Source of the DNA: Aureivirga sp. CE67
GTDB taxonomy: Bacteria; Bacteroidota; Bacteroidia; Flavobacteriales; Flavobacteriaceae
Direction: 5' to 3'
Assembly (NCBI RefSeq): GCF_015767245.1
Contig: NZ_JADOTV010000002.1
Coordinates: 62,001-126,000, forward strand
DNA length: 64,000 nucleotides
Shown: positions 35,053 through 53,107 of the stretch, one piece after another
Position numbering within the stretch: position 1 is the first letter of the stretch
Layout of the letters: each line of letters opens with the position of its first letter
Notes under the pieces: generated by a model
What the model saw: the letters and a program-made list of their open reading frames with translations, nothing else
Database searches by the model: none
What the model was told of the DNA's origin: nothing
Program-made: the position numbers and the translations under genes

Positions 35053-35907
35053 TTAATAAGATTTAGTTACATCTTCATCTACAACTAAGATAAAGTCTGC
35101 TTTTTCTTTATTTTCTTTTTTAAACTTATTTACCTCTTTTTGTTCTACAATGGAAATAGTAACAATATTCAGTTCAGGATTATGTTTTTTCAAATACCAA
35201 TAAATTCCTTCAAAATCGTCAGAATGATAAGAACCATTAAAATGAATAAAAAGTTCTCCTTCTTTTTTATTTTTCAAAATAGAATTTGCCATTGTAGCAT
35301 CTTTTAAAGCCTGTGCTTTTGGTAAGTTTTCTCCACCATGACCTCCCATCATTTTCAACATATTTTGGTATCCTGGTAAGTTTTTATCATAAGGAATCGG
35401 AAGCGGAGCAATCCATTTTTTTTCATCAACCGCTAATGTTTCCAAACCTTCAAATCCTTTTTTATAAACAATACTTGCGTATTTTCTAGGAACATTTGTA
35501 GCAATTACTGGAATATTATTTTTTTTAGAAAATTCAATTAATTGTAAATAATCTGTGTCAAAATTATTCCAAGGACGTGCTAAAGAATCAAATTCTTTTT
35601 TAGTTAATTTTTCTTCTAAAAAAGCATCCATGGTCGTTTGTGTATCTGTTTCGAACATTTCCATTCCAATAGTCACTTTATTATTTTCCGAAATGTCTTC
35701 TAAAATAGAATATTCCAGCCAGTGAGAAATCGGGTTATTGTGGAATTCTCCAACTAAAACAACATCTGCTTTTTTGATTTTTCGAAGCATTTTTTGATAA
35801 CGAACTTTCTTTCCATTTTCGTTATACAATTTATACACATCTTTTCCTTGTGCATTTCCAATAAGACTAAAAGCTAAAAAACTAACTAGAAGAAATATAT
35901 TTTTCAT
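35053..35907 (-). CDS. ChaN-family (Tiki superfamily) exported protein
   Basis: The 284-residue protein has a signal peptide (1-19, ending IGNAQ) and the ChaN/DUF399 domain: VVLVGEFHNNPISHWLEY near 50-67 with the conserved Glu and His, and VTIGMEMFETDTQ near 78-90. Campylobacter ChaN is an iron-regulated haem-binding lipoprotein; the wider Tiki superfamily also contains metalloproteases. No lipobox Cys follows the signal here, so it is probably soluble in the periplasm. Its role, haem handling or hydrolysis, is open. A small zinc-site protein gene ends 39 bp upstream in the same direction, so the two may be co-transcribed. Confidence 0.85.
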   Translation of the reverse strand: MKNIFLLVSFLAFSLIGNAQGKDVYKLYNENGKKVRYQKMLRKIKKADVVLVGEFHNNPISHWLEYSILEDISENNKVTIGMEMFETDTQTTMDAFLEEKLTKKEFDSLARPWNNFDTDYLQLIEFSKKNNIPVIATNVPRKYASIVYKKGFEGLETLAVDEKKWIAPLPIPYDKNLPGYQNMLKMMGGHGGENLPKAQALKDATMANSILKNKKEGELFIHFNGSYHSDDFEGIYWYLKKHNPELNIVTISIVEQKEVNKFKKENKEKADFILVVDEDVTKSY

Positions 35908-35946
35908 AAAATTTATCTTGGTTAAAGAGCAAATGTAAGATAAAAT

Positions 35947-36291
35947 CTATTCTCTTTTTATCAAGACAAACAAATCATTTTCAAGAGCAAGATAGCCTTG
36001 ATCATAGCAAAAATGATAAACAGTTCCTTTTTTTGTAGTATAAATGGAAGTCAAATAATCAAAGTCAAAACCTTTACTAATTAATTTATGTTTTGAAACC
36101 TTTGTTTTTCCAGAAACATTTAGTTCGGATAGAATTTTGTAGTTTTTTCGCAGGCGATTATTGATATTTCGAATGATTTTTTTTCCTTCGATATCTAATC
36201 TGTTGTTATAACTGTTTCTACAATAGTCCGAGCAGTATTTTTTATCTATTCTTCCAACAAATGTTTCTTCACAGTTTAAGCACTTTTTCAT
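35947..36291 (-). CDS. Small protein with N-terminal four-cysteine zinc site
   Basis: The 114-residue cytoplasmic protein begins MKKCLNCEETF and has cysteines at 4, 7, 20 and 24 (KKYCSDYCRNSY), a treble-clef-like or zinc-ribbon-like knuckle that probably binds one zinc. A basic central part (GKKIIRNINNRLRKNYKIL) could contact nucleic acid. The C-terminal part (FDFDYLTSIYTTKKGTVYHFCYDQGYL) looks like a compact beta domain. I recall uncharacterised flavobacterial proteins with this layout but no described function. It lies between a 42-residue membrane protein gene and the ChaN-like gene on the same strand. Confidence 0.8.
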   Translation of the reverse strand: MKKCLNCEETFVGRIDKKYCSDYCRNSYNNRLDIEGKKIIRNINNRLRKNYKILSELNVSGKTKVSKHKLISKGFDFDYLTSIYTTKKGTVYHFCYDQGYLALENDLFVLIKRE

Positions 36292-36316
36292 TCACAATTG
36301 ATTTTAAATTCTTAGT

Positions 36317-36445
36317 TTAAAACAAATCTTTAATCCATTTTCCTAAACCAAAAAATATTGCTAACCAAACCAATCCTTTGATAAAGAAAAAAAGAAAGCC
36401 TACAAGACCTATTTTTTTCAGCCAATCTTTAACTTTTTTTTGCAT
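36317..36445 (-). CDS. 42-residue membrane microprotein
   Basis: The minus strand encodes a complete ORF from ATG (36445) to TAA (36317). The start is basic (MQKKVKDWLKKIG), followed by one strongly hydrophobic helix (LVGFLFFFIKGLVWLAIFFGLG) and a short amphipathic end KWIKDLF. The charge pattern suggests a single-pass inner-membrane peptide with its N-terminus inside. Similar short KKIG-GF-FF-IKG-W proteins occur in Bacteroidota as far as I recall, always without function. It ends 25 bp before the zinc-site protein gene on the same strand, so it may be the first gene of that small operon. Confidence 0.6.
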   Translation of the reverse strand: MQKKVKDWLKKIGLVGFLFFFIKGLVWLAIFFGLGKWIKDLF

Positions 36446-36562
36446 GAGGTTGTATTATTAAGAGTCTCTAAAAATAAGAAATAATTGCTTCAAAATCATA
36501 TTTTAAAGCAATTATTTAGAATTGTTCTATTTAAAAGTTTGTTTCTTAACAATAACCATTTA

Positions 36563-37906
36563 TTATTTTACGGATGCTACGATATTGCTAACCATTCCGT
36601 CAAAATCAAAAGCATCTCTTTCTGAGTAACCTAGTCTAACAATCACCATATCTTTACTAGGAATTATGAAAATTCTTTGTCCTTGATATCCATTTGCAGA
36701 ATACATATCTCTAGGTGAGTTTGGATAGAAACCTCCTTTGTTAATCCAGAATTGTTCACTATATCTATCATCTGATTCTGGAGCTGGTTCTTGTGTATAT
36801 TTCACCCAAGACTCTTTCAAAATCTGATCTCCATCCCAATTTCCATTATGAAGATATAAAAGACCAAACTTAGCCCAATCTCTCGTTGTAGCCCAACCAT
36901 ATGAAGAAAGAACATAATTTCCGGCACAATCTGTTTCGATAATCATAGAATGCATTCCCATTTTATCGATAAAAGATTTATAAGGAAAATCCATATAATC
37001 TTGATACGAATCAAATTGTTTTCTCAAAATTCCAGAAAGAAGATTTGTGGTTCCAGAAGAATAATTGAAAAAATGATTAGGTTTATGTTTTTCACTTTTA
37101 TTGATTTGAGATTTTGTCATATTTCCAGCTTGAAAAAGCATTTTTGTCACATCAGAAATAGTATTATAATCTTCAACCCATTCCAAACCACTATTCATTT
37201 TTAGTAAATCTTTTGTGGTGATTTTTCTTCGATCATCTTTTTGCCATTCTTCTACAGGAGCAGGTTTATGAATATCAAATTTCTTTTCTTTTTGAAGAAT
37301 TCCAAACATGGTGTTTGTCAAACTTTTTGTCATCGACCAACCTAAAAGACGAGTGTCTTTGTTATATCCTTCCATGTATTTTTCTCCAATAATTTGATCT
37401 TTATAAATAACTAAAACTGCTTTTGTTTTTTTAGTTGCAGAATCTAAAGATTCGTCAAAAGCATCTGCGATTGTTTTGTTTAATTTATCATAATCGATAT
37501 TGGTAAAAGTAGTGTCCTTTGGTTCTAAATTTCCATAAGGGAAAGGCTTTTGGATTGGTGTTAAATTTCTATTCGGAGCATCATTTTTCTCACTTTTAGG
37601 AGCATTTTCAGGAAGAAGTACACAACCTAAACCTTCTCTATAAATAGCTTTTCTCTTTTTTAATCCAAAAACTGTAGAAGTAACAGATTTTTCTTTAAAA
37701 TCAATTTTATTCTTAGCCATTTTAATTGGTGAAAAACCATTGTCTTCAGATTCGATAGATTTTAATTTTCTATCGGCAACAAAAGTACACGAACAAACAT
37801 TTTTTGCTGCAAAACCTGTAATGATGTTTAATCGAGGATAATTATAGACTACAACTACAATTATTACAGCTATCAGTATGAAAAAAATCATTTTTGCAAT
37901 TTTCAT
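36563..37906 (-). CDS. Serine hydrolase of the class C beta-lactamase/esterase family
   Basis: The 447-residue protein is anchored by an N-terminal membrane helix (about 5-21) and has a penicillin-binding-protein-type catalytic domain from about 140 onwards. The nucleophile motif SMTK lies at 191-194. The second motif is Tyr282 in FNYSSGTTN, where YSSG replaces the YAN of true AmpC enzymes, as in EstB-like esterases. A third motif may lie in the SANGYQGQRIF region. A role in peptidoglycan or ester hydrolysis outside the cell is more likely than antibiotic resistance. The 35-140 region, with CSC and a GLGCVLLPE segment, is typical of this subfamily of long serine hydrolases. It is a single-gene unit. 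Confidence 0.87.
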   Translation of the reverse strand: MKIAKMIFFILIAVIIVVVVYNYPRLNIITGFAAKNVCSCTFVADRKLKSIESEDNGFSPIKMAKNKIDFKEKSVTSTVFGLKKRKAIYREGLGCVLLPENAPKSEKNDAPNRNLTPIQKPFPYGNLEPKDTTFTNIDYDKLNKTIADAFDESLDSATKKTKAVLVIYKDQIIGEKYMEGYNKDTRLLGWSMTKSLTNTMFGILQKEKKFDIHKPAPVEEWQKDDRRKITTKDLLKMNSGLEWVEDYNTISDVTKMLFQAGNMTKSQINKSEKHKPNHFFNYSSGTTNLLSGILRKQFDSYQDYMDFPYKSFIDKMGMHSMIIETDCAGNYVLSSYGWATTRDWAKFGLLYLHNGNWDGDQILKESWVKYTQEPAPESDDRYSEQFWINKGGFYPNSPRDMYSANGYQGQRIFIIPSKDMVIVRLGYSERDAFDFDGMVSNIVASVK

Positions 37907-38127
37907 ATTTTAAGAAATCTATTTTGAGTAAATAATTTGATTAATCTTTTAAGAACTGATTTTTTTAGTTCTTATTTTCTTATGTAATTTATAAAAGAAA
38001 CATAGATAAATCAAGGATAATTAATAATTTAACGGTATTACGTTATTTTATTAGGGTATTTTCTCTTTTATTATCCTCTATATGAAAAAAGTAATGATTT
38101 GTTTTATAGTAAATATTTTATGTAGTT

Positions 38128-38568
38128 TTATTCTTTTAGATACGATTTAATCTTCACAATATGCTCTTTTTTATAGCCTTCGTATCCCCAAATTAATTCT
38201 TTTCCTTTGTATAATTGAAAAATTGGATAAAAGTCATTTGGAAAAACACTGCCATCTTTTGGGTTTATGAAAAGATATTTGTCCAAATATCGTTGATGAT
38301 ATCTTTTTATAGTCATTGGGTTTCCAAATTCGGCAACAACAATATTTAATTTCGGAGATTTATCAAAAATTAAAAGGTCTTTCATCGCTTGATTACAATA
38401 ACCACAACCAACTCCAGCAGTCATTATTAGTGTAAATTCTTTTTCTTCCTTAAAGTATTCTTTAGTATTTAAAACTTCGACAGAAGAGTAATCTGGAATG
38501 TATTCAATAGTTCTACAAGATTGTAAACTGAAAGTGAAAATAGCGATGTACAATAATCTTTTTAACAT
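38128..38568 (-). CDS. Thioredoxin-like lipoprotein with CGYC motif
   Basis: The 146-residue protein has a lipoprotein signal ending SLQSC (Cys18), then a thioredoxin fold with the redox motif C55-G-Y-C58 after FTLIMTAGVG. A later PIFQLYKGKELIWGYEGY segment could supply the cis-Pro loop (FYPIF) and final strands. CGYC resembles the motif of DsbC/DsbG-type or glutaredoxin-like proteins; a periplasmic thiol-disulfide role is likely. It is separated from the upstream nuclease gene by a terminator, so it probably has its own promoter. Its 221-bp downstream gap to the serine hydrolase gene shows nothing recognisable. Confidence 0.8.
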   Translation of the reverse strand: MLKRLLYIAIFTFSLQSCRTIEYIPDYSSVEVLNTKEYFKEEKEFTLIMTAGVGCGYCNQAMKDLLIFDKSPKLNIVVAEFGNPMTIKRYHQRYLDKYLFINPKDGSVFPNDFYPIFQLYKGKELIWGYEGYKKEHIVKIKSYLKE

Positions 38569-38576
38569 AAAACAAA

Positions 38577-38618
38577 AAACCTATTAAAACGTAAAAGTAT
38601 ACTTATTTTAATAGGTTT
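38577..38618 (-). terminator. Terminator after the EEP nuclease gene
   Basis: A perfect 13-bp stem (38577-38589 with 38606-38618) has a 16-nt loop. The A tract on its left is the T tract for minus-strand transcripts. Confidence 0.8.
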
Positions 38619-38641
38619 AATAATATTTTGTTTAAAAAAGA

Positions 38642-39718
38642 TTAATCATCGTCGTCATTATCTCCTCCCATTTCTCGAATTAAATAAATATAAACAGGAT
38701 AATGATCACTATATCCACCTGTATATTGGTTATTCGAATAACTTCGGAAAGGATAACCTTTATATCTTCCTTTTGAATTTGTTAGATAACTTGGGTTAAA
38801 AATATGTGCTTCATAGAACTTATAATCATCATAATCTTTATCATCTGTTAATAATTCTCCAGAAATAATTATTTGATCAAAAAGATTGATATTATCTCTA
38901 TAACCTAAAGAGCTCATTCCTGATTCAAACATATTATAAAAAGGATTGTAAAGTTCTTCATCCTCCACATTTTTAGACCTTTTAGCATCCAAAATATCTT
39001 TGATACTTTTATTTGTAGGATCATCGTTAAAATCTCCCATAATCATAATTTTCGCATCATCATCTTCTTCAAGAATCTCATCTACAATTTTTTTGGTTAA
39101 TGCTGCAGCTTTTTCTCTTAAAGGACTACTTCTTTTTTCTCCACCTCTTCGAGATGGCCAGTGATTAACAATCACATAAACTAATTCGTCATCTAAATAT
39201 CCTTTTACCATCAATTGATCTCTGGTGTAAATTCTTCTACCATTATCACTCCAGAGTTTTAACTCATAACTTTTATAGTCTACTGGAGAGAAATATTTTT
39301 TTTGATAAAGTAGCGCAACATCTACACCTCTTTTATCTGGAGAATCAAAATGAATTATTCCGTAATTTTTTTTCTTTATTCTTTCATTATTTACTAAATC
39401 TTGTAAAACACCTTCTGTTTCTAATTCCGAAACTCCCAAGATTACTGGTCCATTTTTATCTTTATCCGTTCCGATTTCAGAAATTACTTGTGCCAGATTA
39501 TCTATTTTATCCCAATATACTTTTGATGTATATTGATCTTTTCCGGTTGGAGTTCTATCATCGTCATAAGTATCAGGATTGTTAATGGTATCAAATAGAT
39601 TTTCCAAATTATAAAAAGCTACTGTTCTTATAGAATATTTTTTTCCTGATTTTTGACCAAAAACTTGTATAGATACAAAGCTTAAAACTACACAAATGAA
39701 TAGGATTTTATTTTTCAT
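38642..39718 (-). CDS. Secreted endonuclease/exonuclease/phosphatase (EEP) family protein
   Basis: The 358-residue exported enzyme has a signal peptide (1-21, ending QVFGQ) and the complete EEP catalytic set in order: VAFYNLENLFD near 34-44, GVSELE with catalytic Glu near 94-99, VNHWPSRRGG near 182-191, IIMGDFNDDPTN near 225-236 and GGYSDHYPVYIY near 336-347. EEP enzymes cleave phosphodiesters; export favours extracellular or periplasmic DNA/RNA or a phospho-lipid as substrate. It is divergent from a TonB receptor and DUF5689 lipoprotein, a grouping that suggests nucleic-acid scavenging. The C-terminus is Asp-rich (DNDDDD). Confidence 0.9.
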   Translation of the reverse strand: MKNKILFICVVLSFVSIQVFGQKSGKKYSIRTVAFYNLENLFDTINNPDTYDDDRTPTGKDQYTSKVYWDKIDNLAQVISEIGTDKDKNGPVILGVSELETEGVLQDLVNNERIKKKNYGIIHFDSPDKRGVDVALLYQKKYFSPVDYKSYELKLWSDNGRRIYTRDQLMVKGYLDDELVYVIVNHWPSRRGGEKRSSPLREKAAALTKKIVDEILEEDDDAKIMIMGDFNDDPTNKSIKDILDAKRSKNVEDEELYNPFYNMFESGMSSLGYRDNINLFDQIIISGELLTDDKDYDDYKFYEAHIFNPSYLTNSKGRYKGYPFRSYSNNQYTGGYSDHYPVYIYLIREMGGDNDDDD

Positions 39719-39817
39719 TTTTCATTGTTTTAAATGTGTTTTAAAATTATAGATATTTTTTCAATTTTATTTTAAAAAACAATTAAAATTATCTTTTTTT
39801 AAATTTATAACAGCTTG

Positions 39818-39848
39818 TTGTTCAATTAATTATTTAAACGTACCTTTA
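39818..39848 (+). promoter_or_regulatory. Candidate promoter of the receptor-DUF5689 operon
   Basis: TTG at 39818-39820, 20 bp, then TACCTTTA at 39841-39848 matches the -33/-7 pattern with one mismatch, 55 bp before the receptor start. Confidence 0.45.
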
Positions 39849-39903
39849 ATTAGCAGTTCTATGAACTCAAGTTTAAATTTTAATTCATGTAACGTAAAAA
39901 AAG

Positions 39904-42663
39904 ATGAAAATCAAGTTTATTACATTCAGTATCTTTTTTTGTTTCATGGTATCTTTTATGCACGCCCAATCTGTAATAAGGGGTGTAATAGTAGATAATG
40001 AAACAGACTTACCATTAAAAGATGTACAGCTATCCGTTAAAGGATTTACAAAAATTTACACAACAAACGAACAAGGTGTTTTTGAAATTGACAATTTGCC
40101 AATTGGAAATCACATGTTAATTATTAATTATGAAGATTATCTGAATCAAAATATTCCCTTTGCAATAAAGGCAGATAATGAAGAGCTAGATTTTGGAATT
40201 ATCGTTTTAGAAAGAAATTTTGAAGATGATAATGATTTAAGTGTAATTACACTTACAGAAGACGATTTAGATGAAAATGGAAGTGGAGGAACGGAAAATA
40301 TTTCTGGTTTGTTACAATCATCAAGAGATGCTTTTTTACAGGCAGCAGCTTTTAATATTGGACAAGCAAGATTCCGTGTAAGAGGTTATGATTCCAATCA
40401 AGGAACGATTTTGATTAACGGAATTTCGATGAATAAACTTTATGATGGACGTCCACAATGGAATAACTGGGGAGGTTTGAATGATGTTTTTAGAAATCAA
40501 ACTTATATCAATGGATTACAACCTTCCAGTCAAATTTTCGGAGGAGTCCTTGGAGTTTCAAGTTTTGATACTCGTGCCTCATCGTATAGAAAGCAAACAA
40601 AAGTTTCGTATTCTTCTTCAAACAGTAACTATACAGGAAGGGTGATGGCTTCCTATTCTTCAGGTTTACAAAGTAATGGATGGGCTTATGCCGTTTTAGG
40701 TTCAGGACGATTTGCTAATGAAGGGTATTTCGAAGGTTCTTATTACGATGCCTGGAGTGGTTTTATTGCAATTGAAAAGAAAATATCAGATAAACATAGC
40801 TTAAACCTAACAGCTTTTATAGCGCAAAATAAAAGAGGGAAATCTTCTCCAAATACTCAAGAAGTTTATGATTTAAAAGGATATAAATACAATTCTTACT
40901 GGGGAAAACAAGCAGGGGATGATAGAAATTCTAGATATAGAGATATTAATGAACCAACATTTATCTTAAGTCATTATTGGAACTTATCAGATAAGGCTTC
41001 TTTAAATACAAATGTTGCTTATCAATTTGGGCACATAGCAAATAGTCGTTTAGGATTTTTTAATGCACCAAATCCAGATCCAACATATTATAAAAAACTA
41101 CCAAGTTATTTCCTAAGAGACGAGTCAAATCCTGATTATGCAAATGCATATTTAGCATATGAGAATTTTAGAGACTACGGACAAGTTACCTGGGAAGATT
41201 ATTATGACATCAATATGAATAGATATGATGTAAATGGTAATAGATTAGAAAATTCACTTTATTATCAATATGAAGATAGAGTGGAAGATAATCTATTTTC
41301 AGCTTCTTCTATTCTAAATGCAAGTTTAACTAATGATATCATTTTAGATGCAGGAGTTTATTATAAAAATCTAACATCGAACAATTTTGCTAAAATGGTA
41401 GACCTTTTAGGAGGTTCTTATTTTATTGATTTAGATCCTTTTGCAGATCCAGGTAAAATGCAAAATAACTTAAATGATCCTAATAGAAAAGTTTATACGG
41501 ATGATGAATTTTTATACAGTTATGATATAAATGCTTCGACTTTAAATACTTTTGCGCAACTACAATTTCAATATAGCAAAATAGACTTTAATGTTTCAGG
41601 TTCTTACACTAATACTTCTTACCAAAGAGATGGTAATTATAGAAATGGAACCTTTGCAGATAATTCTTTTGGAAAAGGAGAAAGACAAACTTTTAATGAT
41701 TTTGGTGTAAAAGCTGGAGCTACTTATAAAATTACAGGAAGACATTTAATTCTTGGAAATATTGGGTATATCACGCAAGCCCCAAGTATCAGAAATACTT
41801 TTGCAAATGCGAGAGTTAATAATACAATTATTCCAAATATTGATAGTGAAAAAATCGCTACAGGAGATATTAGTTACTATTATAGAGCTCCAAAATTTAA
41901 AGGAAGAATCACAGGTTATTATACTAAATATCAAGATGGAATAGAAACTTCTTTCTTCTTTGCTCAAGGTTTAAGAGGAGATGATTCTGATTTCGTATCT
42001 GAAATGCTTACAGGTGTTGACAGACGTCATATGGGGATGGAATTATCTTTAGAATACGATGTAACTTCTACTATTAAGCTTAAAGGAGCTGTAGCAATGG
42101 GTGAATATATCTATGATAATAATCCTAATTTATATTTACAATCTTCGAGTGCGGAACCTTTAATTAGCTATGGTCAAACTTATATTAAGGATTATAAATT
42201 AAGTAATGGACCACAAAATGCTTATTCTTTAGGTTTTGAATATAGAGATCCAGATTATTGGTGGGTAGGTGCAAATGCAAATATTGTTTCAAATAATTAT
42301 TTAGACATAGCACCAGTTTTAAGAACTGAAAACTTCTTTTTAGATTCAGAAGGACTTCCATTTAACGATATCGATGAAAATTTAGCAAAAGAACTTTTAA
42401 GACAAGAAAAATTTGATTCTGCTTTCTTAGTAAACCTTCAAGGAGGGAAATCTTGGAAAGTAAATCAATATTATATCGGATTTTTTGCAAGTGTAAATAA
42501 TGTTTTAGGAGAACTGTATAAGTCAGGAGGATTTGAGCAATCAAGAAATGCAAACTACCAAAGATTAAAAGAAGACAAAGGTAGGCAAACTCCGCTTTTC
42601 GGCCCTAAATACTGGTATGGTTACGATACAACCTATTTTTTAAATGTTTATGTAAGACTATAA
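39904..42663 (+). CDS. TonB-dependent receptor with CarboxypepD-reg-like domain
   Basis: The 919-residue outer-membrane protein has a signal peptide (1-22, ending FMHAQ), a beta-sandwich N-terminal domain (about 24-98, IRGVIVDNETDLPLKDVQLSV), a plug (about 110-225, with FRVRGYDSNQGTILINGISM) and a long barrel ending FLNVYVRL. The layout recalls SusC-like receptors, but the partner gene encodes a DUF5689 lipoprotein instead of SusD. It is followed after 10 bp by that lipoprotein gene and is divergent from a secreted EEP nuclease. This combination is consistent with import of nucleic-acid fragments or another phosphorus-rich polymer; the substrate is inferred from neighbours only. Confidence 0.9.
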   Translation: MKIKFITFSIFFCFMVSFMHAQSVIRGVIVDNETDLPLKDVQLSVKGFTKIYTTNEQGVFEIDNLPIGNHMLIINYEDYLNQNIPFAIKADNEELDFGIIVLERNFEDDNDLSVITLTEDDLDENGSGGTENISGLLQSSRDAFLQAAAFNIGQARFRVRGYDSNQGTILINGISMNKLYDGRPQWNNWGGLNDVFRNQTYINGLQPSSQIFGGVLGVSSFDTRASSYRKQTKVSYSSSNSNYTGRVMASYSSGLQSNGWAYAVLGSGRFANEGYFEGSYYDAWSGFIAIEKKISDKHSLNLTAFIAQNKRGKSSPNTQEVYDLKGYKYNSYWGKQAGDDRNSRYRDINEPTFILSHYWNLSDKASLNTNVAYQFGHIANSRLGFFNAPNPDPTYYKKLPSYFLRDESNPDYANAYLAYENFRDYGQVTWEDYYDINMNRYDVNGNRLENSLYYQYEDRVEDNLFSASSILNASLTNDIILDAGVYYKNLTSNNFAKMVDLLGGSYFIDLDPFADPGKMQNNLNDPNRKVYTDDEFLYSYDINASTLNTFAQLQFQYSKIDFNVSGSYTNTSYQRDGNYRNGTFADNSFGKGERQTFNDFGVKAGATYKITGRHLILGNIGYITQAPSIRNTFANARVNNTIIPNIDSEKIATGDISYYYRAPKFKGRITGYYTKYQDGIETSFFFAQGLRGDDSDFVSEMLTGVDRRHMGMELSLEYDVTSTIKLKGAVAMGEYIYDNNPNLYLQSSSAEPLISYGQTYIKDYKLSNGPQNAYSLGFEYRDPDYWWVGANANIVSNNYLDIAPVLRTENFFLDSEGLPFNDIDENLAKELLRQEKFDSAFLVNLQGGKSWKVNQYYIGFFASVNNVLGELYKSGGFEQSRNANYQRLKEDKGRQTPLFGPKYWYGYDTTYFLNVYVRL

Positions 42664-42673
42664 CTAAGAAATC

Positions 42674-44002
42674 ATGAAAAAATTATTTTTATTATTAAGT
42701 ATAGGATGTTTATTAGCTGTTTTCCAAACATCTTGTGTAAATGACGATGATTATTCAATTCCAAACATCGTAGATCCAAGTATTGATATTAAACCAAATA
42801 TTACGCTTGATGGAGTAAAACAAATGTATACAGGTTCTCTGATTGAATTTGGTGCAGATTCAGATTTAATTTTCGAAGCTTATGTAGTTTCAAGTGATGA
42901 AACAGGAAATATATATAAAGTAATGTATTTACAAGATGATCCTACAGATCCAACACAAGGTATTGCTATCAGTATAGATGCTACAAATACTTATGTGAAA
43001 TACAATGTAGGAAGAAAAGTATATGTGAAGTTGGCAGGATTATATATGAATGCTTTGAACGGGGTTTTAACTATTGGAGGTTTAAATGGATCAAATGTTG
43101 GAAGAATTTCTGAATTTACTTACGAAGATCATTTAGTCAGAACTCCAGAAACAATGATGGTTACGCCAAAATTGATTACAAGTGCTGATTTCTCTCCTGC
43201 AATTCATAGTATGTTAGTAAAGTTAGAAGATTACCAATTAATCGAAACACAATTAGGAGATGCTTATGCAAACTACGATAATACTTTTTCTGTAAATAGA
43301 ACTTTAGTTAGTTGTAGTGGTGGAGAAAATGTTGTGATGAGAAATAGTGGTTTTGCTACTTTCAAGTCACAAACATTCCCAGAGGGAAGAGGTTCTGTTG
43401 TAGCTGTATTTAGTGCTTATAATAGTACAAATCAATTATTCATTAGAAGTACAGAAGATGTTCAATTTGAAGGAACAAGATGTAAAGCTCTTTTTGAAGA
43501 GAATTTCAGTTCTGTAACAGATAACCAAAAAATTGAACTACCAGGTTGGATTAACTTTACACAAGCTGGAACAAGAGACTGGAATGGAGGGGAATTTAAT
43601 GATGATAAATATGCTAAATTCTCACCTTTCGGAGCAAATGAACCAGAAAATATTGGTTGGTTAATTACACCAGCAATTGATTTGAATGAAACTACAGATC
43701 CATTATTAACTTTTGAAAGTGCTACAGCATATCCTGTAGATGGATTCCAACCTCTTGAAATTTTAGTTTCAACGGATTTTGACGGTACAGAAGCAGGAAT
43801 TCCTAATGCAACATGGAATGTGTTAAATGCAACTCTAGCAGGGCCTGGAAATAGTAATTTCGAGGTAGTTCCTTCAGGAGAGGTAAGTTTAGCAAGTAAT
43901 ATTTCTGATCAAGTATATATTGCTTATCGATATACAGGTAATTCTGCTGATAATCAATCTCCTTTAATGCAGATTTATAACATCAAAGTATTTGAAAAAT
44001 AA
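42674..44002 (+). CDS. DUF5689 surface lipoprotein with C-terminal choice-of-anchor-J-like domain
   Basis: The 442-residue lipoprotein has a signal peptide ending VFQTSC (Cys21) followed by VNDDD, which fits surface export. The first half (about 45-270) is a DUF5689-type region with OB-fold-like strands (LIFEAYVVSSDETGNIYK, GIAISIDATNTYVKYNVG). The second half (about 275-440, starting ALFEENFSSVTDNQKIELPGW) matches choice-of-anchor-J/cleaved-adhesin beta-jelly-roll domains. DUF5689 is related to OB-fold modules of secreted nucleases, so binding nucleic acid at the surface and passing it to the receptor encoded 10 bp upstream is plausible. That role is inferred; the domain names are from recall. 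Confidence 0.82.
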   Translation: MKKLFLLLSIGCLLAVFQTSCVNDDDYSIPNIVDPSIDIKPNITLDGVKQMYTGSLIEFGADSDLIFEAYVVSSDETGNIYKVMYLQDDPTDPTQGIAISIDATNTYVKYNVGRKVYVKLAGLYMNALNGVLTIGGLNGSNVGRISEFTYEDHLVRTPETMMVTPKLITSADFSPAIHSMLVKLEDYQLIETQLGDAYANYDNTFSVNRTLVSCSGGENVVMRNSGFATFKSQTFPEGRGSVVAVFSAYNSTNQLFIRSTEDVQFEGTRCKALFEENFSSVTDNQKIELPGWINFTQAGTRDWNGGEFNDDKYAKFSPFGANEPENIGWLITPAIDLNETTDPLLTFESATAYPVDGFQPLEILVSTDFDGTEAGIPNATWNVLNATLAGPGNSNFEVVPSGEVSLASNISDQVYIAYRYTGNSADNQSPLMQIYNIKVFEK

Positions 44003-44026
44003 TAGTTTTTTATATTAAAGTTGAAT

Positions 44027-44057
44027 AAGCTGTTTCTTAATTGAAGCAGCTTTTTTT
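44027..44057 (+). terminator. Terminator after the DUF5689 gene
   Basis: A 10-bp stem (44027-44036 with 44043-44052, one G-T pair) with a 6-nt loop is followed by a T tract. It shows that an in-frame TTG at 44041 is not the start of the next gene. Confidence 0.85.
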
Positions 44058-44100
44058 AATTATTTTTTTATTAAATTTGAATAAAAGAAAAAGTAACATT

Positions 44101-44358
44101 ATGAAAATCAGCACAAAAACTTTAAGGATTCTTCCTGTATTTTTAATTCTTATCTATTCTGCAATTATATCTATTTTTGATTTAAGCTTTAAAGTTGAGA
44201 TGACAATTATTTGGTCATTTATTGCTTTAAGTTTAGTCTCATTAGGGTATTTATATAAAAATGTATTTTCTCAAAAAGAAAAGAAACAAAAACTGATTCA
44301 ACTTTCGTTTGCAATTGTTTCTCTAATTGGAGTTTTACTTTTTCAAGTTTATAGATAA
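44101..44358 (+). CDS. Small three-helix membrane protein of unknown function
   Basis: The 85-residue protein starts at ATG 44101 (MKISTKTLRILP) and has three hydrophobic segments: about 10-25 (VFLILIYSAIISIF), 32-50 (MTIIWSFIALSLVSLGYL) and 66-83 (LSFAIVSLIGVLLFQVY), the last two separated by a basic loop FSQKEKKQK. It is an integral inner-membrane protein that I do not recognise. The frame stays open back to 44041, but that part lies inside a terminator hairpin. It is a single gene between two terminators, convergent with the suf operon. Confidence 0.65.
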   Translation: MKISTKTLRILPVFLILIYSAIISIFDLSFKVEMTIIWSFIALSLVSLGYLYKNVFSQKEKKQKLIQLSFAIVSLIGVLLFQVYR

Positions 44359-52944: not shown

Positions 52945-53077
52945 AGGAGCTTCCCCTATATTCTTCGACTCCGTTCCACTTCGCTCAGAATTCGGGTCGG
53001 GCTATCCGCTATATCTTTTTTGCTAAAGCAGCATTATGAAGAAAAACAAAAAAGGATGCCGCTACTATCCCTAAGCC
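52945..53077. repeat. G+C-rich structured intergenic element, copy B
   Basis: This stretch differs sharply in composition from the A+T-rich flanks. It has a TTCGACTCCG...TTCGCTCAGAA block (52962-52990), the core GGTCGGGCTATCCGCT (52995-53010) and a distal GGATGCCGCTACTATCCC (53054-53071). Complementary tracts CTTTTTTG and CAAAAAAG near 53014-53021 and 53047-53054 can fold it into a hairpin. The core matches 13 of 16 bases of the one at 13554-13569. From memory, such core-plus-distal-arm elements are scattered between flavobacterial genes; no name or function is known to me. No ORF overlaps it. Confidence 0.6.
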
Positions 53078-53107
53078 AAAAAAAATAAAGGAAATGTATA
53101 GAAACAA

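Follow-up and report, generated by a model that had tools for sequence, protein, structure and literature searches.

The DNA analyzed here, a stretch of 64,000 nucleotides from Aureivirga sp. CE67 (Flavobacteriaceae; GCF_015767245.1, contig NZ_JADOTV010000002.1, positions 62,001 to 126,000; hereafter, the window), contains a compact group of three genes that is discussed below as a candidate DNA-uptake system (Table 1). All three are intact frames according to an open reading frame check, and they encode an exported nuclease of the EEP superfamily, a predicted TonB-dependent transporter (hereafter, the receptor) and a lipoprotein with a DUF5689 domain. The nuclease gene is transcribed away from the other two and, judging from this divergent layout, the intergenic region presumably holds the promoters of both the nuclease and the receptor; the lipoprotein gene starts 10 bases beyond the stop codon of the receptor.

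The original prediction for this locus, made from the nucleotide sequence alone, was of a complete, exported EEP nuclease encoded divergently from a SusC-like receptor and an exported DUF5689 lipoprotein, which together would bind, cut and import nucleic acid. The nuclease fits this description, with an intact frame, a signal-peptide-like N-terminal stretch recognized by reading of the sequence, and a strong Pfam match to PF19580 (E = 1.9e-117; 392.2 bits against a cut-off of 27). In an alignment of 17 nuclease sequences, N37, E39, E98, E100, H186, D229, N231, D281, D338 and H339 are invariant, and the E, H, D/N, D and D-H positions among these presumably correspond to the catalytic residues of DNase I. 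The best NCBIfam match is to the ExeM/NucH DNase family (NF033681, 7.3e-07), with a score of 28.4 bits that lies far under the cut-off of 300, and sequence and profile searches found no solved relatives. In several genomes, a second nuclease of the PF19580 type, with about 320 amino acids and no obvious signal peptide, is encoded beyond the lipoprotein gene.

The predicted fold identifies the receptor as a TonB-dependent transporter: its AlphaFold model contains a beta barrel, and all 50 Protein Data Bank entries listed among the structural matches are transporters of this type. The model is of moderate quality (mean pLDDT 61.8), with low values in the plug region. Pfam recognizes CarbopepD_reg_2 (40.3 bits; cut-off 32.2) and, just below the threshold, the Plug domain (22.4; cut-off 23.9). 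The SusC-like designation fits only in the wide sense of a TonB-dependent transporter: no NCBIfam model, those of the SusC type included, matched at E ≤ 0.1. Sequence and profile searches found solved relatives for the N-terminal domain only, and the receptor is the sole match at E ≤ 1e-120 in its own genome (4 of 51 candidates scored). In two other loci (here and below, loci and genomes carry the labels L and G), the receptor gene is interrupted and the lipoprotein is kept (L247:8292-11112 in G347 and L144:10600-13373 in G021), possibly reflecting a recent loss of DNA uptake or a sequencing error.

The lipoprotein, too, has the features originally attributed to it, namely, a DUF5689 domain (1.3e-64) and an export signal, which reads as a lipobox-like stretch followed by C-V-N-D-D-D-Y. 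Pfam and NCBIfam additionally recognize a DUF5017/choice-of-anchor-J C-terminus, and there is one further weak, unrelated Pfam match. The structural model is good (mean pLDDT 87.4) and nearly all-beta; within it, the DUF5689 region is all-beta besides short helices, with two groups of strands at residues 66-135 and 154-267. The fold matches cover residues 268-442 and hardly any of DUF5689, and so bear on the C-terminus, where the last 175 residues are predicted to form a jelly roll like the cleaved-adhesin domain of Kgp (4itc, Z 15.5, 2.8 Å over 151 residues), the carbohydrate-binding domain of a chondroitinase (8jiy, Z 16.7, 3.0 Å over 165 residues) and MAM domains. The original prediction called the DUF5689 region OB-fold-like, with OB folds commonly binding single-stranded nucleic acid; for this protein, both the fold and such binding are at most putative. 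No solved relatives of the lipoprotein were found in sequence and profile searches, nothing useful was found in a viral structure library, and hhalign gave no match to the N-terminal region of ExeM with a profile of two sequences only. The C-terminus of the family appears exchangeable: a lamin-tail domain follows DUF5689 in L110:9871-11250, and DUF5689 itself is duplicated in L125:7315-9279 and L253:3681-5867. The window genome also encodes large exported DUF5689 paralogues (L002:4-3033 and L003:592-3603), of which one carries a type IX secretion tail and the other a choice-of-anchor-I domain; both start with a stretch that looks lamin-tail-like by eye and for which Pfam gave no lamin-tail match.

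Table 1. Features of the nuclease-receptor-lipoprotein locus (positions in the window unless a locus is named)
Feature	Position	Strand	Basis and correspondence
Exported EEP (Exo_endo_phos_3) nuclease, 358 aa	38642-39718	-	PF19580; probable counterpart of RA0C_RS04910
EEP domain of the nuclease	about 38678-39625	-	PF19580, residues 32-347
Intergenic region between nuclease and receptor (divergent), 185 bases	39719-39903	.	Gene coordinates
TonB-dependent transporter (receptor), predicted	39904-42663	+	Pfam and fold; counterpart of RA0C_RS04915
Carboxypeptidase-regulatory-like domain, receptor N-terminus	about 39976-40194	+	CarbopepD_reg_2
DUF5689 lipoprotein	42674-44002	+	Pfam/NCBIfam; counterpart of RA0C_RS04920
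DUF5689 part of the lipoprotein	about 42794-43462	+	Pfam 1.3e-64
Jelly-roll C-terminus of the lipoprotein, predicted	about 43475-43999	+	DUF5017/choice-of-anchor-J match and fold comparison
Second PF19580-type nuclease (other genomes)	L079:11348-12316, L115:11243-12193, L123:11088-12056		Alignment; Pfam on L079 only

The strongest lead to the function of the trio comes from Riemerella anatipestifer. Among the open-licence papers in PubMed Central, DUF5689 is named in one only, a transposon-based screen of this bacterium for natural transformation genes (PMC8459023, cited here from the sections available). The screen describes a carboxypeptidase-like domain in the outer-membrane protein RA0C_RS04915 and DUF5689 plus DUF5017 in RA0C_RS04920, and clean deletion of either gene brought transformation below detection (PMC8459023, Table 2). 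The authors propose that RS04920 binds at the surface and that RS04915 provides the passage, a model that they themselves call speculative; in the sections available, the model includes no nuclease, and the enzyme converting double-stranded to single-stranded DNA is said to be unidentified (PMC8459023). The widespread occurrence of homologues of the two genes, mostly adjacent to each other in Flavobacteriaceae, is already noted in the same paper (PMC8459023). No further paper mentioning the three R. anatipestifer locus tags was found in open-licence PubMed Central.

The gene order at this locus in R. anatipestifer CCUG25054 (L146) is ComEC (PF03772, 1.9e-57), a gene of 145 amino acids, a carboxyltransferase, the nuclease, the receptor and the lipoprotein, in agreement with the published spacing of the tags RS04895-RS04920. 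With ComEC being RS04895 and the tags rising by five, the divergent nuclease should be RA0C_RS04910, an assignment made across strains, given that CCUG25054 differs from ATCC 11845. In the sections of the screen that are available, RS04910 is mentioned a single time, as the gene lying upstream in a quantitative PCR polarity test, and is outside the 16 markerless mutants (PMC8459023). The window proteins are 35% (receptor, nearly full length), 30% (lipoprotein) and 41% (nuclease) identical to those of L146. The window pair has the architecture of the R. anatipestifer module, with a TonB-type receptor that has a carboxypeptidase-like (CPD) domain and is directly followed by a lipoprotein with DUF5689 and DUF5017/choice-of-anchor-J, and, by sequence and gene order, the two are syntenic counterparts of RA0C_RS04915 and RA0C_RS04920. 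Riemerella columbina, which is also competent (PMC7965970), carries the same trio (L145). Involvement of TonB is suggested by the lowered transformation of the tonBA and tonBB mutants of R. anatipestifer, of which tonBA shows no iron defect in a streptonigrin test; the authors ascribe the effect of tonBA to transport of some unknown nutrient (PMC8383284).

Because the receptor and the lipoprotein correspond to R. anatipestifer transformation genes, import of nucleic acid is the best reading of the locus, and the idea behind the original prediction was largely right, genetic uptake being the one of its three listed uses that has genetic backing. The role of two of the three genes in genetic uptake is already on record, so that the system is known and its mechanism undefined. 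The present analysis adds a conserved third partner, the nuclease, and the observation that some lineages keep the trio although neither ComEC nor DprA is detected in them.

Comparative genomics, proposed originally as a check of the prediction, supports this partnership: the three genes are conserved together, contrary to the first outcome that the prediction named as refuting it. Of 199 Flavobacteriaceae genomes, 181 have the lipoprotein family, 179 the receptor (E ≤ 1e-120) and 188 the nuclease family. All 179 receptor-bearing genomes have a PF19580 match (weakest best E value 1.6e-57, in G127), a count that reflects presence of the family and is not a proof of orthology, and the 11 genomes that lack the nuclease family all lack the receptor and the lipoprotein as well (Fisher test 4.6e-13, with relatedness ignored). 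A nuclease gene no more than 600 bases away from the start of the receptor is found in 76 of 95 Flavobacteriaceae (the window included and genomes fetched twice counted once), in all 11 Weeksellaceae (family f5) and in 8 of the 10 genomes from other families. Four loci without a receptor in the stretch were left out of this count, namely, L118 (a further DUF5689 locus of G176, a genome with its receptor in L139), L264 (from G004, a genome without a receptor match), L269 and L273. Scored as misses were, among others, L124 (G108), where the receptor, split into two frames, lies beside the nuclease and a paralogue was scored; L131, which is cut by a contig end; L134 and L137, with one gene between the nuclease and the receptor; and L263 (G032), a paralogue in a genome without a receptor match. 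The samples are not random, the first 60 loci having been chosen from the better lipoprotein matches. In a collection of named strains, which overlaps with the f5 sample (e.g. L145 and G472, L150 and G502), the strict trio is found in 79 of 80 loci, the sole miss being L169, which starts 1128 bases upstream of the receptor; hence, the arrangement is not due to chance. In a gene-order control, the next most common neighbor family occurs in 41 of 61 loci and in only 2 of the 11 f5 genomes, compared with 11 of 11 for each member of the trio.

In both genomes of family f25, the nuclease, the receptor and the lipoprotein are co-directional and lie behind a second nuclease gene, recognized by PF01223 in L252 (1.6e-41) and assigned in L256 by its length, position and DRGH motif only. 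The persistence of the association despite the changed orientation of the nuclease points to a functional link. In this family, the module is a longer operon (L252:11755-14787, L256:11351-15290) in which the DRGH-motif endonuclease is joined by a further large gene that has a weak BACON match in L252.

The window genome encodes one DprA (2.4e-63) and one ComEC (1.6e-55), along with a ComF-like protein (3.1e-29, under the curated cut-off) and a frame of 301 amino acids with two HHH_3 matches. Among the 199 Flavobacteriaceae genomes, presence of the receptor is associated, if not tightly, with that of DprA (Fisher test 1.2e-06) and ComEC (9.7e-07), again with relatedness ignored.

Taken together, these observations suggest that the trio is probably an outer-membrane DNA-uptake module of Bacteroidota that feeds ComEC and DprA. 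The lipoprotein would sit on the cell surface beside the transporter and aid the capture or admission of extracellular DNA; the transporter, energized by TonB, would pass the DNA into the periplasm; and the exported EEP nuclease would cut it, outside the cell or in the periplasm, either nicking it so that entry can start from an end or degrading one of the strands. ComEC would then take the single strand into the cytoplasm, where DprA and RecA would process it. The need for the receptor and the lipoprotein has been shown in R. anatipestifer (PMC8459023), as has that for two TonB proteins for a normal transformation frequency (PMC8383284); we infer the passage of DNA through the receptor, the contact of the lipoprotein with DNA, the action of the nuclease on incoming DNA and its mode of cutting. 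A more specific version can be put forward only tentatively: the EEP enzyme might be the nuclease still missing from the scheme, for entry or for degradation of one strand, in a pilus-independent DNA importer energized by TonB; such an importer would occur in nearly all Flavobacteriaceae and Weeksellaceae and here and there in other families of the phylum, and would act as a stand-alone module that feeds ComEC or is kept for DNA feeding where ComEC and DprA have been lost.

Several observations weigh against an uptake module coupled to ComEC and DprA. Among the 199 genomes, 7 have ComEC and DprA without the receptor and the lipoprotein, and 6 carry the trio while lacking any detectable ComEC or DprA. 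Beyond the order to which the window belongs, the module is sparse: in a draw across the phylum, the receptor (E ≤ 1e-60) was found in 39 of 247 genomes, 29 of them in this order, and 2 of the 10 receptor-bearing genomes outside it have no adjacent nuclease. Twelve of the 19 adjacency misses in Flavobacteriaceae come from a single genus, g127, which, as a guess, we take to be Flavobacterium and in which the nuclease is non-adjacent in 12 of 14 genomes. In the study that reported competence of R. columbina, no transformants of Flavobacterium johnsoniae were obtained under identical conditions (PMC7965970). Loss of the nuclease in g127 was considered as an explanation for this non-competence and rejected, because each of the 14 genomes has a full-length PF19580 match, next to the receptor or at another place (in 13 of them, as two stretches jointly spanning the model). 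The lipoprotein is also mostly acidic, judging from isoelectric points (pI) computed for samples of 160, 160 and 156 loci in which some genomes were counted twice: it has a pI of 4.1-7.2 with a median of 4.94 (160 loci), which counts against a simple basic DNA-binding surface. In the window, the nuclease and the receptor are acidic, too, with values of 4.8 and 4.9, respectively, although the median for the nuclease across 156 loci is 8.75. No report of a deletion or an assay of the nuclease was found among the open-licence PubMed Central papers listed, judged in the wider searches by titles and the openings of abstracts, which is no proof of its absence from print. Finally, R. anatipestifer M949_1556, the gene from which the NCBIfam family of the lipoprotein takes its name, has been tied to lipopolysaccharide, antigenicity and pathogenicity (work cited in PMC4976936 and PMC12566107), so that the loss of transformation could be an indirect consequence of a surface defect.

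The six genomes that combine the trio with undetected ComEC and DprA, absences that rest on one family model each, are the main hint of a use beyond transformation, such as DNA feeding. In five of them (L125-L128, L130), the genes of the trio are adjacent open frames, and L131 is cut by the contig end; in the receptor tree, the six are spread over three clades, of which two belong to one nine-member group. If the module were primarily a nutritional DNA scavenger, in which the nuclease shortens DNA, the receptor and the lipoprotein import the pieces as a source of phosphorus or nucleosides, and ComEC-dependent transformation is secondary, such genomes would be accommodated, and the PF01223 nuclease in the f25 operons would fit as well. 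One of the six, G142, is a single contig of 3.1 Mb listed as 99% complete, but the other five are drafts listed as 78-87% complete. Moreover, removal of phosphate lowers transformation in R. anatipestifer, giving no sign of control by phosphate starvation there (PMC8383284, sections available), and the eight frames at 35053-44358 include, by Pfam, no phosphatase, nucleotidase or nucleoside transporter, the EEP enzyme aside. On balance, a scavenger in the first place is rather unlikely. A search of open-licence PubMed Central for papers joining Flavobacteria, extracellular DNA, TonB, nuclease and phosphorus found none.

An indirect role is less probable still. Here, the receptor and the lipoprotein would maintain the cell surface, for instance, the presentation of lipopolysaccharide or capsule, their loss would block uptake as a side effect, and the nuclease would be a mere neighbor. 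The predominantly acidic lipoprotein, the resemblance of its C-terminus to adhesin, carbohydrate-binding and MAM jelly rolls, and the role of M949_1556 all agree with this possibility. The lipoprotein of L146 scores 590.8 against the cut-off of 475 of the NCBIfam family named after M949_1556; against NF052645, the window lipoprotein has a score of 242.8 bits, under the cut-off of 475, which none of the 199 Flavobacteriaceae genomes passes and which, across the order, is passed in 35 of 395 genomes, all from family f5. In the R. anatipestifer deletion mutants, however, transformation was below detection and not merely reduced (PMC8459023). A mere neighbor is also hard to reconcile with the presence of the nuclease family in all 179 receptor-bearing genomes and with the co-directional f25 operons that include two types of nuclease. 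In a last alternative, which is very improbable, the EEP enzyme would act as a phosphodiesterase on lipids or sugars, and the receptor would import some phospho-ligand in place of nucleic acid: although the EEP superfamily includes lipid-cleaving enzymes and the nuclease has no solved relative detectable by sequence, its best NCBIfam match is to the ExeM/NucH DNases, the receptor and the lipoprotein correspond to transformation genes of R. anatipestifer, and the f25 operon holds a DNA/RNA endonuclease of the PF01223 family.

With a family member in all 179 receptor-bearing genomes, usually next to the receptor where gene order was compared, and with no mutant among the 16 markerless ones of the R. 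anatipestifer screen, the nuclease is a direct and cheap candidate for the study of how DNA gets through the outer membrane of these bacteria. If the DNA-uptake module proposed here is real, TonB-dependent transporters can move DNA, and a single module joins gene transfer and DNA feeding.

Next to the trio, 73 bases downstream of the nuclease gene and on the same strand, the gene at 38128-38568 (-) encodes what reads as a thioredoxin-like lipoprotein, with no match in a Pfam scan. It was rejected as a member of the system, given that a counterpart is found in only 1 of 60 loci (L076, from G033 of the same genus). Elsewhere in the window, positions 52991-53081 (-), beside a tRNA-Asn gene, match the Flavo-1 small RNA family (62.1 bits).

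Among known systems, the RS04915/RS04920 pair of R. anatipestifer is the closest, with the same domains, the same gene order and the same positions of the receptor and the lipoprotein as in the window, and with the nuclease present there, too; the differences are that the window proteins are only 30-41% identical to their counterparts and that the published model, in the sections available, does without the nuclease (PMC8459023). The extracellular nucleases ExeM, NucH and Xds resemble the window nuclease in being exported EEP enzymes (PMC6085458). In ExeM, the EEP domain is combined with two putative OB folds and a lamin-tail domain, and activity is lost when the OB-like region is missing (PMC6085458); a lamin-tail domain also follows DUF5689 in one orthologous lipoprotein tested (L110). 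Unlike in ExeM, the EEP enzyme and the DUF5689 lipoprotein of the window are separate genes that flank the transporter, and the ExeM cut-off is not reached. SusCD pairs are similar in that the gene of a surface lipoprotein comes after that of a TonB-dependent transporter whose N-terminus has a carboxypeptidase-like domain; the difference is that the window lipoprotein combines DUF5689 with a predicted jelly roll and is nearly all-beta, unlike the helical SusD. In the type IV pilus and secretin uptake of other Gram-negative bacteria and in the pneumococcal system with EndA, DNA likewise reaches ComEC, in some cases with the participation of an exported nuclease. Among the eight frames scanned with Pfam around the window locus, there is no pilus or secretin gene, and the outer-membrane route proposed here is, instead, a TonB-dependent transporter.

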